Positions 40,857 to 46,394 of a DNA stretch of 64,000 nucleotides are shown here, piece by piece. Position 1 is the first letter of the stretch; each line of letters opens with the position of its first letter. The position numbers and the translations under genes are program-made. The stretch comes from Flaviaesturariibacter aridisoli. GTDB taxonomy: Bacteria > Bacteroidota > Bacteroidia > Chitinophagales > Chitinophagaceae. The stretch is from assembly GCF_004343705.1 (NCBI RefSeq), contig NZ_SKFH01000011.1:62001-126000 (forward strand), given 5' to 3'. The notes under the pieces were generated by a model. That model was not told the DNA's origin. It worked only from the letters and a program-made list of their open reading frames with translations, and ran no database searches.

Positions 40857-41315
40857 TTACATCGGATCATGAAAGAGATACTGCGAATCAAACGGAATAT
40901 CCCGCTCGGTCAGCATCCCGATAATTTCCTCGCGGAACTTCATCTTGCGATGATGCGCTTCCTGGTTGCGGATATAAGCGATCACCGTGGGCAGAATGTT
41001 CTTCGTGCAGGCAAACGCGGCATAGCCATCCTGCCAGTGAAAGGGCACCTCCGTAAAACCTCGCTTGTTGATCCATTCCGACGTATCGCTTTTGAGGTCG
41101 CGCATCAGGTTGCTTTCGGCTGTGGATGGATGCTTGCCGATCAGAATATGGAGGTGATCGGGCATCGCGTTGATGGCCAGCACTTTCTGCTTTTTGTTTT
41201 GAAGATGGCCGGTCTGGTAACGCAGCATCTCGTCGCGCCAGGGCGGGAGTAGGAGCGCCCGGCGGTACTTCACCGCCGTGATCAGGTGCACGTGTAATTG
41301 GGTATAAGACGACAT
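40857..41315 (-). CDS. REP-associated tyrosine transposase (IS200-like Y1, RAYT)
   Basis: 152 residues, complete Y1 transposase domain. The HUH motif is in MPDHLHILIG (His54, His56) and the catalytic Tyr114 in VIAYIRNQEAHH. The N-terminus YTQLHVHLITAVKYR and WQDGYAAFA are family typical. These enzymes nick single-stranded hairpins. The palindromes with GTAG feet directly downstream support the RAYT class over a free-living IS200, and no IS200-type ends are seen. Appears intact. Confidence 0.88.
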   Translation of the reverse strand: MSSYTQLHVHLITAVKYRRALLLPPWRDEMLRYQTGHLQNKKQKVLAINAMPDHLHILIGKHPSTAESNLMRDLKSDTSEWINKRGFTEVPFHWQDGYAAFACTKNILPTVIAYIRNQEAHHRKMKFREEIIGMLTERDIPFDSQYLFHDPM

Positions 41316-42690: not shown

Positions 42691-42929
42691 ATGACTAAGG
42701 GTTTGGTTCCTATTAAGGTACGACGGAACGGAGCACAACCGCAAATCCCGGAGCCCTTCTTTTCGCAGCGCCGTTGCAGTGAGGGCGGCAGGGACGGTGG
42801 GAAGGTTTCTCGCAGAGGGCGCGGCGCGTTTTCCCCGCCGCTGGCGGGGCAGGCTGCAGAGGACGCAGAGGCCTTCCAGTTACCAACAGACACTTAGGCA
42901 GTAGTACAGGCAGGAATGTCGTTTCTGAT
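42691..42929. other. Gene-free gap with CAGAGG words
   Basis: No gene seen. CGCAGAGGGCGCGG near 42834 and GCAGAGGACGCAGAGGCC near 42861 use the same vocabulary as the outer arms of the GxxExxY unit at 45224; a CCCCGCC-GCT-GGCGGGG hairpin lies between them. Confidence 0.5.
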
Positions 42930-42963
42930 CGAGGCTGCGGGAGGCGCCTTACAGGCGGAGGAA
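42930..42963 (+). repeat. 34-base REP-like element, copy 1
   Basis: CGAGGCT-CGGGAGGCGCCTT-ACAGGCGGAGGAA region, three mismatches from 45323-45356. Contains a CGCCT/AGGCG palindrome. Confidence 0.7.
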
Positions 42964-43097
42964 AGCCAACATGCCCTGCCGCTCATCTCGTTCTCTCATT
43001 CTCTCGTTCTCTCGTTCTCTCGTTCTCTCGTTCTCTTGTTCTCTCCTTCTCTGTATTTTCACCCATGCCCCGCCTGTTCCTTCTGCTCCCACTTTTT
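42954..43097 (+). repeat. Duplicated leader plus signal-peptide cassette, copy 1
   Basis: From GGCGGAGGAAAGCC through eight CGTTCTCT-type octamers (42989-43052), the start codon and the first signal-peptide codons. Nearly identical to 43908-44043. Confidence 0.85.
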
Positions 43098-43781
43098 CTC
43101 GCTTCTTGCCTCGGTCCGGGCAACACCGATTGCTGTGAACGCCTGTCGCGCGACAGCCTCGCGCACGGACTGTACGTGGAGCGTTACCACACGTTTTGCG
43201 CCGGCGTCTGGGGCGACGGTTATACCCTGTACCTCACTGATACGACCTCATTCCGCGCCCGTATCGGCTGGCAAGACGAGCACGGCCACCTGGGCTGGCG
43301 GCTCGACGCCGACTCGCTGCGGGTGTTCCGGTATGAGTTTGCCGACGACATCGATACGTTGCGCCACGTACAGCTCTTCCCGGAACAATTGGCGGCAGTT
43401 CGTGCCAAGGGCCACGAAGTGCTACTGCAACCGCTATTGGGTGTTCCGCCGCCGGACTGCGTTCAGCTCGTCACAGATCCGGGCTTTACCGAGTTAAGCG
43501 AAGGTTACCGGCTACGCAGCCGGCAGTTGCAATGCCCGCCCAACTATACCAACGAGTACCGCCTCATCGATGGCAAAGGGCTTAACCTGCTTCTCGGCTA
43601 CGATCGACCCGGCGAAAACCTGTCGTTTTACCCGACGGTGCAAAAGGACGGCTCGATCGACATTTACGAAACAACGAGTCGGCAATGGCGCGACACCACC
43701 CTGCGCGAAGCATTTTACCTGCCCGCCCTGCGCCACGCCGGCCTGGTCCAACCCTGCGACAAAACTTCCACGAAGAAGTAG
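43065..43781 (+). CDS. Hypothetical lipoprotein with duplicated leader
   Basis: 238 residues. MPRLFLLLPLFLASCLG gives lipobox LASC (Cys15). The mature part has several Cys (TDCCERL, YHTFCAG, PPDCVQL, LQCPPN) and no recognised domain. Start codon 12 bases after an array of eight CGTTCTCT octamers. The first 11 residues and the whole leader are shared with the lipoprotein at 44011, but the mature parts are unrelated, so a promoter-signal cassette rather than the gene was duplicated. Confidence 0.7.
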   Translation: MPRLFLLLPLFLASCLGPGNTDCCERLSRDSLAHGLYVERYHTFCAGVWGDGYTLYLTDTTSFRARIGWQDEHGHLGWRLDADSLRVFRYEFADDIDTLRHVQLFPEQLAAVRAKGHEVLLQPLLGVPPPDCVQLVTDPGFTELSEGYRLRSRQLQCPPNYTNEYRLIDGKGLNLLLGYDRPGENLSFYPTVQKDGSIDIYETTSRQWRDTTLREAFYLPALRHAGLVQPCDKTSTKK

Positions 43782-43907
43782 GACCAGTAAAGCTTTCTTT
43801 ACCATCGAACACTCAGACAAGATTAACGGCCGGATAAGCGACTTTTATTTCGAGGCTGGGGGCAGATCCTGCGCGCCCCCGGCCGAAGCCTATGGCGCGG
43901 AGGCCCG

Positions 43908-44043
43908 GGCGGAGGAAAGCCAACATGCCCTGCCGCTCATCTCGTTCTCTCGTTCTCTTGTTCTCTCATTCTCTCGTTCTCTCGTTCTCTCGTTCTCTGT
44001 ATTTTCACTCATGCCCCGCCTGTTCCTTCTGCTCCCCCTTTTT
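43908..44043 (+). repeat. Duplicated leader plus signal-peptide cassette, copy 2
   Basis: Same as 42954-43097 but with seven octamers (43943-43998) in a different variant order, followed by GTATTTTCAC and the start codon. Confidence 0.85.
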
Positions 44044-44601
44044 CTGATTGCTGCCTGCAGCAGCAACGACAGCCAGCCCCGGCAATCGGTCGCCGCAACG
44101 GCTGCTGCCGCAACTTCCCCCACCGATACGAGCTGGCTGCCTGCGTTCCGCGCCTTCCGCGACGCGGTGTACCGACATGACAAGACCGCCGCGCGCGCCT
44201 TTGTGCCGCTGCCGATGGATACGGTGGAAAACGACGTGTGGTACGTGGCCGAACTGGAAAAGGCCACCGCAACCGGCATCAACGGCGCCCGGCCCTTTAC
44301 CGCCGCCCACTTCGACCGCTACTTCGACCAGCTCTTCGCCCCGGGCTTTATCAAAACGCTGCTGAAGGTGAAAAGCGATACCCTATACCGCAGCGGCCGC
44401 TACGAAACCCCGTTCATCACCGAAGGCGATACCCGCTACCGGATGTATACACGAGTGGAAGACAACATCCTGCTACTGAACCTGTATTCCGAGTCGGTCA
44501 CCGAAGCGGAGGAGGAAGTGACCACCGAGTTCAGCGTGCTCTACTACTTCGACATCCAGGGCAATCGCCTGCAGCTCCGGCGCATCCGAGTCGCCGGCTA
44601 A
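44011..44601 (+). CDS. Hypothetical lipoprotein with duplicated leader
   Basis: 196 residues. MPRLFLLLPLFLIAACSS gives lipobox IAAC (Cys16). A Ser/Ala/Thr-rich linker precedes a globular part (WLPAFRAFRDAVYRHDKTAARAFVPLPMD ... YYFDIQGNRLQLRRIRVAG) that looks like a small alpha+beta NTF2-type fold; this is a guess. The open frame runs upstream to 43570, but the signal peptide fixes the start at 44011. The stop is followed by a CATGTACTCATGTATTC word repeat. Confidence 0.7.
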   Translation: MPRLFLLLPLFLIAACSSNDSQPRQSVAATAAAATSPTDTSWLPAFRAFRDAVYRHDKTAARAFVPLPMDTVENDVWYVAELEKATATGINGARPFTAAHFDRYFDQLFAPGFIKTLLKVKSDTLYRSGRYETPFITEGDTRYRMYTRVEDNILLLNLYSESVTEAEEEVTTEFSVLYYFDIQGNRLQLRRIRVAG

Positions 44602-44615
44602 CCCCCTCTCCCCTC

Positions 44616-44645
44616 ATGTACTCATGTATTCATGTACTCATTTGA
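44616..44645. repeat. TCATGTA word repeat
   Basis: CTCATGTA, CTCATGTAT and TCATGTACTCA run in tandem 14 bases after the lipoprotein stop codon. It has no inverted arm. Confidence 0.6.
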
Positions 44646-44682
44646 TCTCCCCTCCTGACCCGCATCTCCCTACCTTACCTCT

Positions 44683-45219
44683 ATGCACCACCACGAGGAC
44701 CTCGTTTTCCTCCGCGACCTTTACGAAGGGGCGCGCCACCGCTACCGGCCGGCACAGTTGCGCACGATCCTGCTTGCCGAGGCGCCGCCCGAAAACCTGG
44801 AGCGCTTCTTCTATTACGAAGACGTGAAGCGGCAGGACTCCCTCTTTCTCGAGATCATGGGCGTGCTCTACCCGCGGCAGAAGGAAGCTTACCTCAAAGC
44901 CAAGCGTCCCACCGAGGGCAAGACCGACCTCCTGCAACGCTTTCAAAGCGACGGCTTCTGGCTCTGGAACTTCTACCCCCTGCCGGCCTCGCTGACCACC
45001 GACAGCGACGCGGTATTGCTCGAACGGCTCCTTGCCGGGCTGCGGCGCTATGCGTCCTTCGACACGCAACTCATTCTCATCAAAGCGTCGGTGTACGATA
45101 CCTGCTACACGCCCCTGACAAGCGCCGGCTACCGCGTGGCGCCTGAGCGCCTGCCCTACCCCGGCAGCGGGCAGCAGGCGGTGTTCCGGGAGGGATTCCG
45201 AAGGGCGTTGGGGGATTGA
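44683..45219 (+). CDS. Hypothetical protein, possibly uracil-DNA glycosylase-like
   Basis: 178 residues, cytosolic. The stretch RTILLAEAPPENLERFFYYEDVKRQDSLFLEIMGVLYP recalls the first motif of uracil-DNA glycosylase folds (LxxEAP) with a DSLF segment, and IKASVYDTCYTPLTSAGY a later strand. I am unsure; it could be a distinct conserved family. Its 3-prime end abuts the outer repeat of the GxxExxY unit. Confidence 0.6.
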   Translation: MHHHEDLVFLRDLYEGARHRYRPAQLRTILLAEAPPENLERFFYYEDVKRQDSLFLEIMGVLYPRQKEAYLKAKRPTEGKTDLLQRFQSDGFWLWNFYPLPASLTTDSDAVLLERLLAGLRRYASFDTQLILIKASVYDTCYTPLTSAGYRVAPERLPYPGSGQQAVFREGFRRALGD

Positions 45220-45223
45220 TGTT

Positions 45224-45265
45224 TTAACGCAGAGAAGCAGAGCGATTCACGGCGGGCACAGAGGC
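45224..45265. repeat. Outer inverted arm, left, of GxxExxY unit
   Basis: 42 bases, starting five bases after a stop codon, with the words CGCAGAG and AAGCAGAG. Reverse complement matches 45902-45943 at 41 of 42 positions. Confidence 0.92.
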
Positions 45266-45322
45266 GAGGTCGCTACCAGCGACTATACGGATTGCGCGAC
45301 AGGTCTTGATCCGTTTTCTGCA

Positions 45323-45356
45323 CGAGGCTACGAGAGACGCCTTACAGGCGGAGGAA
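45323..45356 (+). repeat. Inner inverted arm, left (REP-like copy 2)
   Basis: 34 bases with the palindrome CGCCTTACAGGCG; four bases before the gene stop codon. Reverse complement matches 45811-45844 at 32 of 34. Confidence 0.88.
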
Positions 45357-45360
45357 GGCG

Positions 45361-45747
45361 CTACCAGTTGCGGACATAGCGATGGAAGCCTTGCTTCAGG
45401 AGCGGAACATTGAAGTTGATCAGGTAGGCCAGCTTTTTATCGGCCAGTTTGAGGTAGGTGAGGAGTTGGGATTCATTGACGGGCACCAATTCCCGGACGG
45501 ACTTCAATTCGACGATGACTGACTCATTGACAAGCAGATCCACGTTGAAAATCTCACCCAGATCTTCGCCATCAAAAACAAAACGCACCGGCGCCTCCAC
45601 CTGCACACGGAAGCCGCGCCTGCGTAACGTGATCGCCATCGCTTTCTTGTAAGCCGATTCCAGGAGCCCCGGGCCAAGCGTCCGGTGCACATAAATAGCC
45701 GCATCCAACACGGCAGCACCGATACGGTTCAATTCTTCTTTGTCCAT
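45361..45747 (-). CDS. GxxExxY protein (PD-(D/E)XK nuclease superfamily)
   Basis: 128 residues. The name motif is GLLESAY (Gly27, Glu30, Tyr33). The nuclease-like core follows: Asp70 in IFNVDLLV and Glu80-x-Lys82 in VIVELKSV, an intact (E)-D-ExK set, then LLTYLKLADKKLAYLINF. The family is widespread in Bacteroidota and other phyla, often multicopy, with no established function. Small size, intact active site and flanking nested inverted repeats make it a candidate selfish gene or a helper of the repeats. No partner gene is adjacent. Confidence 0.92.
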   Translation of the reverse strand: MDKEELNRIGAAVLDAAIYVHRTLGPGLLESAYKKAMAITLRRRGFRVQVEAPVRFVFDGEDLGEIFNVDLLVNESVIVELKSVRELVPVNESQLLTYLKLADKKLAYLINFNVPLLKQGFHRYVRNW

Positions 45748-45810
45748 CCGGCAAACCTCACGTCGTTCGGAAAAACATCCATGTGAAAATCAACAGGGAT
45801 TCCTGTTTTT

Positions 45811-45844
45811 TTCCTCCGCCTGCAAGGCGTCTCTCGTGGCCTCG
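45811..45844 (-). repeat. Inner inverted arm, right (REP-like copy 3)
   Basis: Mirror of 45323-45356 (two mismatches) and of 42930-42963. Confidence 0.88.
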
Positions 45845-45901
45845 ATCAGCACGTAGTTTCAGATCGTTCAGGCTGCCAACATAACTGTTGGTAAAGAACC
45901 T

Positions 45902-45943
45902 GCCTCTGTGCCCGCCGTGAATCGCTCTGCTCCTCTGCGTTAA
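45902..45943. repeat. Outer inverted arm, right, of GxxExxY unit
   Basis: Mirror of 45224-45265 with one mismatch; ends 29 bases before the promoter box of the next gene. Confidence 0.92.
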
Positions 45944-45972
45944 GAAACTACGCGCGCGCTCCCCACCCGGCC

Positions 45973-45980
45973 TACCTTTG
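45973..45980 (+). promoter_or_regulatory. -7 promoter box of AraC-type gene
   Basis: TACCTTTG (TAnnTTTG) only three bases before the ATG at 45984, implying a leaderless or near-leaderless transcript if the box is used. Confidence 0.5.
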
Positions 45981-45983
45981 CTT

Positions 45984-46394
45984 ATGACGCCGCATGCCCA
46001 TCATTACGCCCGCATCGTCAAGGCCAAGCTGTTCATCGACGCGCACTACGCCGAGGCGCTGAACCTGTCGCTCATCGCCGACGAGGCCCACTTCTCCCGG
46101 TTTCATTTCATACGCCTTTTCAAAAGCATCTACCGCCTCACGCCGCACCAATACCTCGTGCACGTGCGGATGAAAGAAGCCCGCAAGCTGCTGCAACAGG
46201 GCTGCGCTGTTACCGATGCGATGCTGGCCGTGGGCTTCGATTCCATCACGTCGTTCAGCAGCCTCTTCCGGCGCCACCACCGCCAGACCCCGGGCCAGTA
46301 CCGGCGCCTGCAGCTGCAGCGGCGCCGGTTGCTGCGCGAAGAGCCCCTGCGCTTTGTGCCGCATTGCTTCGCCGCGCAAAAGGGCTGGGTGTAA
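45984..46394 (+). CDS. AraC-family helix-turn-helix regulator (DNA-binding domain only)
   Basis: 136 residues; the ATG at 45984 follows a -7 box. Two HTH motifs: LNLSLIADEAHFSRFHFIRLFKSIYRLTPHQYL and VTDAMLAVGFDSITSFSSLFRRHHRQTPGQYR, the complete AraC/XylS DNA-binding domain with no effector domain. It is followed 65 bases later by a VOC protein, a pairing common in Bacteroidota, so it probably regulates that gene. Confidence 0.9.
   Translation: MTPHAHHYARIVKAKLFIDAHYAEALNLSLIADEAHFSRFHFIRLFKSIYRLTPHQYLVHVRMKEARKLLQQGCAVTDAMLAVGFDSITSFSSLFRRHHRQTPGQYRRLQLQRRRLLREEPLRFVPHCFAAQKGWV

Follow-up and report, generated by a model that had tools for sequence, protein, structure and literature searches.

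Periodic inverted arms enclose GxxExxY genes in many genomes and suggest a partnership between repeat and protein

In REP/RAYT systems, the type of the REP follows the type of the RAYT. REPtrons and TIRtrons are described, in the passages of PMC3733652 on such units, as chromosomal single-gene units that are flanked by inverted repeats, and copies of these repeats occur elsewhere in some genomes. The intervening sequences of 23S rRNA are short elements whose ends are complementary and whose loop contains one small ORF; the element of Coxiella has a length of 428 nt according to the part of PMC4990558 that treats it. The 720-base unit described here belongs neither to the REPtrons and TIRtrons nor to the S23 intervening sequences, which are its closest known systems.

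The unit lies at 45224-45943 of the window, i.e. the whole stretch of 64,000 nt of Flaviaesturariibacter aridisoli DNA that was analyzed, and consists of one gene that is enclosed by two nested pairs of inverted arms. Its parts, together with a single arm copy upstream, are as follows:

42925..42964 (+), third copy of the inner arm, single, representing a half unit 2.3 kb upstream (87.5% over 40 nt)
45224..45265 (+), left outer arm with periodic CGCAGAG / CACAGAG words, 41/42 complementary to the right outer arm
45266..45322 (no strand), left spacer of 57 nt, containing CTACCA, which recurs in most related units
45323..45356 (+), left inner arm, 32/34 complementary to the right inner arm, recurring in gene-less units
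45361..45747 (-), gene of a GxxExxY protein of 128 aa, assigned to the PDDEXK_3 fold family by profile matches and invariant residues
45783..45795 (-), TGTTGATTTTCAC motif 5' of the gene
45811..45844 (-), right inner arm, pairing with the left inner arm (32/34)
45845..45901 (no strand), right spacer of 57 nt
45902..45943 (-), right outer arm, pairing with the left outer arm (41/42)

An earlier note on this DNA had described the nested arms and spacers, and its figures proved exact to the base. The third inner-arm copy that it had placed near 42930 is present as well, and the outer-arm words that it had mentioned in this region are seen by eye as CGCAGAG words preceding that copy. Aligned with the reverse-complemented right flank, the left flank of the gene gives a score of 51, compared with a maximum of 14 in 30 shuffles of flanks from six genes of the same genome, and a repeat search returns the two arm pairs with lengths of 55 nt (89% identity) and 39 nt (90%). 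REP-like units in the form of local hairpins within the inner arms were considered and rejected, with z values of -0.4 to -1.5 in five stretches.

The encoded protein reaches 125.6 bits with the TIGR04256 GxxExxY profile (cut-off 35) and 124.6 bits with the PF13366 PDDEXK_3 profile (cut-off 22). In an alignment of 75 GxxExxY proteins, G25, G27, E30, Y33, D70, E80 and K82 are invariant, in agreement with the intact core of D70, E80 and K82 that had been claimed before. By profiles and residues, the window protein is classified as a member of the GxxExxY/PDDEXK_3 family and is predicted to be nuclease-like; a sequence search found no relative with a solved structure. The pattern TGTTG.TTTTCAC, as present 5' of the window gene, precedes two more GxxExxY genes in this genus; by eye, a nearly identical motif stands before a DUF559 gene. 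As an upstream motif common to the family it was rejected, being confined to the genus (3/103 and 0/71).

Some further features were seen in the neighborhood of the unit. A direct repeat of ~100 bp at 42950-43065 and 43905-44030, recognized by eye, contains GCGGAGGAAAGCCAACATGCCCTGCCGC and then TCTCGTTC repeats; its first copy adjoins the third inner arm (42925-42964), and it is followed by two lipoprotein-like ORFs that both have the signal start MPRLFLLLPLFL. An IS200-like Y1 transposase gene (40857-41315, minus strand) lies outside the unit at a distance of 4 kb; with the model for REP-associated transposases it reaches only 38 bits (cut-off 80), a weak match.

With REPtrons and TIRtrons, the window unit shares the single gene, the flanking inverted repeats and the gene-less repeat copies in the genome, and with REP/RAYT systems it shares the feature that the class of the GxxExxY repeats follows the protein clade. 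The window protein is of the PD-(D/E)XK type (PF13366, the only domain found in the unit), in contrast to the HUH tyrosine transposase type (Y1_Tnp) of RAYTs. Unlike those of REPtrons, GxxExxY arms are long and periodic on both sides of a ~560-bp unit, and, unlike REPs, the outer arms contain neither GTAG nor CTAC, and of the inner arms only the left one has a CTAC. In case of the 23S rRNA intervening sequences, the similarity concerns the complementary ends around one small ORF, but the window unit lies outside rRNA, encodes a PF13366 and not a PF05635 protein, and has periodic arms. Transposons with MITEs resemble the window-type units in their inverted ends and gene-less derivatives, but recent copies were not found, and the arms diverge between relatives while they are complementary within each unit. 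A relation to Cas4 could be considered, as one Cas4 model of PADLOC gives weak matches with 23/75 GxxExxY members (best E 1.6e-5) and 9/75 match a CRISPR-associated PHROG, but the window protein matches neither. Moreover, Cas4 has conserved cysteines of an iron-sulphur cluster, whereas the GxxExxY alignment contains no invariant cysteine column (at most 47%).

Is this layout a peculiarity of the window? A survey HMM built from 17 relatives gave 208 gene hits (191 distinct) in the collected loci, which are mainly intact PF13366 matches rather than fragments; hits that covered <75 positions of the profile had been removed beforehand, and the 174 genes with at least 300 bp on each side form the denominator. 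With a score of at least 18 for the inverted flanks counted as positive, arms enclose 90/174 GxxExxY genes, and 84/174 are below this threshold. The positive genes are distributed as 3/6 in the own genome, 56/97 in the family survey with congeners, and 31/71 in named genomes, the latter being the best 80 loci among the matches listed (69/80 usable rows) and biased towards relatives of the window protein. Dinucleotide shuffles reached 18 in 0/30, 0/485 and 1/355 cases for the own, family and named sets, respectively, and mismatched left and right flanks did so in 0/19, 2/384 and 4/278 cases. UPF0102 genes, which are of similar size, single-copy in 56 of the 60 genomes used, and presumably also of the PD-(D/E)XK fold, have arms at 0/30, random neighboring open frames of 90-260 aa at 6/164, and those neighboring frames whose flanks avoid the cassette at 1/52. 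Of the checks raised in the earlier note, the one on flanking inverted repeats at other GxxExxY genes turned out in favor of its unit, and so did the one on unrelated genes as far as UPF0102 genes and neighboring frames are concerned. Arms-positive units have a median length of 564 bp (n=90) and occur in 11 of the 15 named phyla, archaea included, plus one unplaced row. Direct instead of inverted flank similarity reaches 18 at 40/174 genes, which possibly comes from sides that hold a whole hairpin. The arms-plus-gene unit is real and general for GxxExxY and not local to the window.

The own genome, a 4.37-Mb draft in 84 contigs, illustrates that arms occur with and without the gene. It contains 8 PF13366 matches and six genes with usable flanks; the inverted arms are strong at three of these six genes, with scores of 51, 31 and 30.5, compared with 15.5, 12.5 and 9 at the remainder. 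Each of these three cassettes has an arm type of its own, CGCAGAG in the window, CGCGGAA in C26, and CGGCG in C10. Gene-less units in C34 and C9 have both pairs of window-type arms, outer and inner, in conserved order, C17 has both window-type outer arms and one inner arm, and C39 and C27 contain left halves of the window-type unit without the gene. In C40, a gene-less palindrome with window-type outer and inner-like arms stands directly beside a DUF559 unit. The C10-type arms recur in C44, where they have a length of 16 nt and form a gene-less palindrome, and C13 contains one such arm alone. A scan of C34, C9, C17, C39, C27 and an arms-only site of the congener G070 found no gene remnant (best E 2.8), and the interpretation of these scanned units as decayed genes was rejected, no gene trace being present. 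Regarding the nearest arms, the two gene-bearing units are mutually nearest and the three gene-less units are not, which at n=5 is only a hint. A strict inner-arm pattern, which gives a lower bound as it misses inner arms that are visible by eye, has 1 site in the own genome, 3 in G068, where they are alternative contigs of one place, and 0 in 16 further congeners; with one own-genome site in this lower-bound count, an independent dispersed repeat was rejected as explanation of the inner arm.

Also in the own genome, a DUF559 gene at L045:1762-2229 lies inside CCCTCCC-type inverted arms. It is preceded by the motif TGTTxxTTTTCACATGG, nearly as in the window unit, and a gene-less GxxExxY-type palindrome is found ~125 bp beyond its right arm.

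The arms are composed of short words that repeat every 8-10 bp. The 62 arms of the CRCNRAG class have autocorrelation peaks at 8 to 10, the 8 arms of the CACRGAT class at 9. The words are oriented: in the 90 units, CRCNRAG words of left arms point 162 times towards the gene and 21 times in the opposite direction. In 100 cassettes scoring 16 or more, the 5-mer distance of the arms correlates with the protein distance (Mantel r 0.378, with 0/2000 permutations as high and a maximum of 0.11), compared with r -0.02 for the DNA outside the arms (outer flanks). The correlation is found between different genomes (r 0.377, 4875 pairs); inside single genomes, the match is only suggestive (r 0.44, 74 pairs, 55/2000 permutations as high). 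On the protein tree, which has 131 columns and 46/97 inner branches open, the GATT-type arm requires 3 changes versus 16.9 when shuffled, and the CRCNRAG-type arm 10 versus 30.1. Proteins with GFQEVIYQRAL mostly have GTCTGAAYCAGGATT-like arms, YKDAL-type proteins have CACGAAT or CACAGAT arms, and GLLES-type proteins mostly have CRCNRAG arms; as read from such sequence comparisons, the arm code within GxxExxY shifts with the protein clade. Among relatives that are >60% identical, the own arms pair better than swapped ones in 244/272 ordered pairs, worse in 25, with 3 ties. As the cassettes were selected for own pairing, this test demonstrates that arms drift while pairing within the unit persists, and the strength of the effect is beyond the reach of the preselected set. 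The units of a Nostoc (L209) and a Desulfobacteraceae MAG (L184) have proteins that are 70% identical and arms that can be exchanged for each other (25.5 and 25.0), which looks like a transfer of the complete unit from one phylum to another. Taken at the level of sequence, the arms change together with the protein, which suggests a repeat-protein partnership.

Presence and absence of whole units could be followed at two sites. The cassette of G004 sits between two genes on its own strand, and the flanks of this site were detected in 17/18 genomes of the genus, in a few only partly. In the 15/18 genomes in which the site is readable, with arms judged by eye in the sequence, the cassette is present in G004, G065 and G060, arms without gene are present in G070, and the other 11 have neither. 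No arm sequence is visible by eye at these empty sites, so that there is no visible pre-existing target. The arms at this site pair over 36/39 positions in G004 and 52/57 in G065 but only 32/56 between G004 and G065; those of G060 pair over 19 nt only (17/19) and those of G070 over 30/37. The own C10 cassette is absent in 6/6 relatives in which the site was read; two further relatives, G066 and G067, have longer inserts. Empty sites in sister genomes, which the earlier note had proposed to look for, are thus found for two cassettes. The empty sites are too diverged to place the junctions at either position, and no target-site duplication could be defined. In sister species, the C10 intergenic place holds CCCTCACCCC-type palindromes in G074 and GACAGGTTTTAAAACCTGTC in G070 (L480, L482).

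At the window unit itself, G068 is the only genome with a long match to the gene on the left flank, and this match lies on a different contig than that of the right gene. Two versions of one place in G068 differ by 784 bp that are bounded by arm copies, which fits a deletion between arms; a recent transposition was rejected, as both contigs represent the same place in alternative forms. Within genomes, 0/149 gene pairs are at least 90% identical and 1 is at least 70% identical, a count in which draft assemblies may have collapsed recent copies. Judged by this divergence, the copies within genomes appear to be old, and active copying is not supported.

PF13366 is present in 39/60 genomes, and two or more arm-type repeats are found in 24/39 genomes with PF13366 versus 4/21 without (p 0.0025). 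Arm-type repeats are nevertheless carried by 7/21 genomes without a PF13366 match, and G003 and G016 have 17 each without such a match, which means that a resident gene is not strictly required for gene-less hairpins. Compact hairpins are found at several of the 11 loci that were read in G016, and three such arm hairpins, folded as DNA, fold far better than shuffles (z ~-8). Local hairpins at single arm-pattern sites, one per genome, were found in 7/30 cases versus 1/76 control positions, a weak signal. G055 has long tandem arrays of the arm word (L371, L369, L370).

The layout is not restricted to GxxExxY genes: DUF559 and four-helix genes share it, with other arm sequences. Arms were found at 10/25 standalone DUF559 genes (45 loci, 15 of them inside ORFs >260 aa and 5 skipped), at 22/45 four-helix PF05635 (S23) genes (50 loci), and at 6/38 GIY-YIG genes (50 loci); the first 30 loci per family came from the search and the rest were hand-picked from listed rows, with short frames picked for DUF559. 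With a coarser version of the test, applied before to the first 30 loci, the counts had been 4/25, 5/26 and 5/25 for DUF559, four-helix and GIY-YIG genes, respectively. PF04480 (DUF559) occurs in 27/60 genomes and PF05635 in 45/60, and none of the 20 loci scanned among the 22 arms-positive four-helix loci contained rRNA. For arms scoring 16 or more, with the named genomes left out, arm words predict the family across genomes, correctly in 62/63 cases for GxxExxY, 12/13 for DUF559, 18/31 for four-helix and 0/8 for GIY-YIG, with a balanced accuracy of 0.62 versus at most 0.35 in 200 permutations. Three or more unrelated families thus share the layout, and the arm vocabulary differs from one family to the next, the case being weakest for the four-helix family. 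GIY-YIG is not claimed as a further matched family, as arms occur at only 6/38 genes and without a common arm code.

As to the wider occurrence of these domains, DUF559 is often found inside open frames >1000 aa (L152 and others), as if nuclease domains had been inserted in frame into large proteins, and a 1380-aa frame with DUF559 (G052:C9) contains a match to GIY-YIG as well. Tandem arrays of GIY-YIG matches whose scores are equal or nearly so are found at G000:C53:84-1138, where the period is 430 bp, and at G055:C1:638659-640009.

Which explanations could account for these associations? It is possible, if rather unlikely, that the units act at the RNA level like 23S rRNA intervening sequences, with arms that pair in the transcript, a stem that is processed (e.g. 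by RNase III), and a protein that acts on or with RNA; in such a case, the palindrome could be retained by insulating the host transcript. S23 proteins are known from 23S rRNA intervening sequences with complementary ends, as stated in the passages on them in PMC4990558. In the present survey, their genes have the same layout at 22/45 loci, with no rRNA in the 20 of these that were scanned. The position of the G004 unit between two genes on its own strand and the three compact arm hairpins, at least when folded as DNA, would agree with such a role. Against it, no Rfam family was found at 42700-46100 around the window unit (E up to 1) or, at gathering scores, in 20 arms-positive GxxExxY loci scanned whole, and if any stem sufficed, one would hardly expect the words of the arms to be specific for protein clades. 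To about the same small degree, we consider a passive association in which palindromes arise by template switching and serve as hot spots that catch small genes, the gene having no work to do on the arms. Several observations could be understood in this way, such as the unrelated repeat types at one intergenic site in different species (seen by eye), the several unrelated gene families in the same layout, the gene-less GxxExxY-type palindrome directly beside the DUF559 unit in C40, and the direct flank similarity in 40/174 genes. A mere trapping of genes is difficult to reconcile with arm words that predict the gene family far better than in permutations (albeit in 0/8 cases for GIY-YIG) and that follow the clade within GxxExxY.

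Two further explanations would involve a selfish gene. A homing-type nuclease could cut gene-less palindromes, and repair would copy the gene into the loop with the arms as homology; gene-less palindromes of the same arm type exist, and G070 has an arms-only unit at the orthologous site. We nevertheless regard it as improbable, since both the gene and visible arms are missing at 11/15 of the orthologous sites that could be read, and the unit hence seems to arrive or leave together with its arms, and since near-identical copies within genomes are absent (0/149 pairs). The same absence argues against a classical small transposon with GxxExxY as transposase, to which terminal inverted repeats, MITE-like gene-less copies and empty sites would otherwise point. 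As arms also differ between copies in one genome, and plasmid and viral records gave few relatives, with matches in 4/72,556 plasmid and 0/50,697 phage records for the window protein as sole query and 2 in a motif-limited IMG/VR scan, such a transposon is very improbable.

The reading that we favor, on account of the arm-protein match and the gene-less copies, is a repeat-protein partnership at the DNA level, and we put it forward tentatively, with confidence somewhat short of even. The GxxExxY protein would recognize the words of its own arms, and this partnership would include cutting. The 720-base unit would then be a member of a widespread group of palindromic chromosomal elements with a GxxExxY gene in the loop, and both arms, with their word repeated every 8-10 bp, would be the recognition sequence of the loop-encoded protein. 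When single-stranded or negatively supercoiled, the arms could form a hairpin or cruciform in the cell, the PD-(D/E)XK protein would bind the arm words and nick or trim this structure, and repair after nicking would keep the two arms alike and spread gene-less palindromes through the genome. Occasionally, repair could move arms and gene together, as a complete unit, to another intergenic position or into another genome. This would be a partnership of the REP/RAYT kind on a different nuclease fold. The parallel to REP/RAYT that the earlier note had drawn is partly supported, namely by the general unit, the gene-less copies, the co-variation of arms and protein and the empty sites; its idea of a mobile unit agrees with the empty sites but not with the lack of near-identical gene copies within genomes. 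To our knowledge, S23 four-helix proteins are not known as nucleases, and as this family has the same layout, recognition is supported more than cutting, and nuclease activity may be unnecessary for the palindrome layout.

We know of no settled role for GxxExxY, DUF559 or four-helix proteins. A published explanation of short periodic repeats around these three families was not found in the literature searched. Searches for GxxExxY, PDDEXK_3 or DUF559 together with flanking inverted repeats, for a four helix bundle protein with an inverted repeat, and for TIGR04256 returned nothing, subscription papers and preprints being outside their scope, and the GxxExxY passages of PMC8934634 and PMC12085832 do not mention repeats around the gene.

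In a wider perspective, many short dispersed bacterial palindromes could be matched repeat-protein pairs and not orphan repeats, with GxxExxY, DUF559 and S23 each having a family-specific arm code, a generalization that we regard as evenly poised between right and wrong. If it is true, protein-coding palindromic elements would make up a general class, and REP/RAYT and the intervening sequences of rRNA would be the two corners of it that are already known. Should every type of repeat have a protein of its own, the puzzle of the repeats and the puzzle of the proteins would become one testable question, for which the match of arms and clades offers a ready test of specificity. For the GxxExxY family, a partnership as proposed here would mean that a second enzyme fold joins RAYT as a keeper of chromosomal palindromes.
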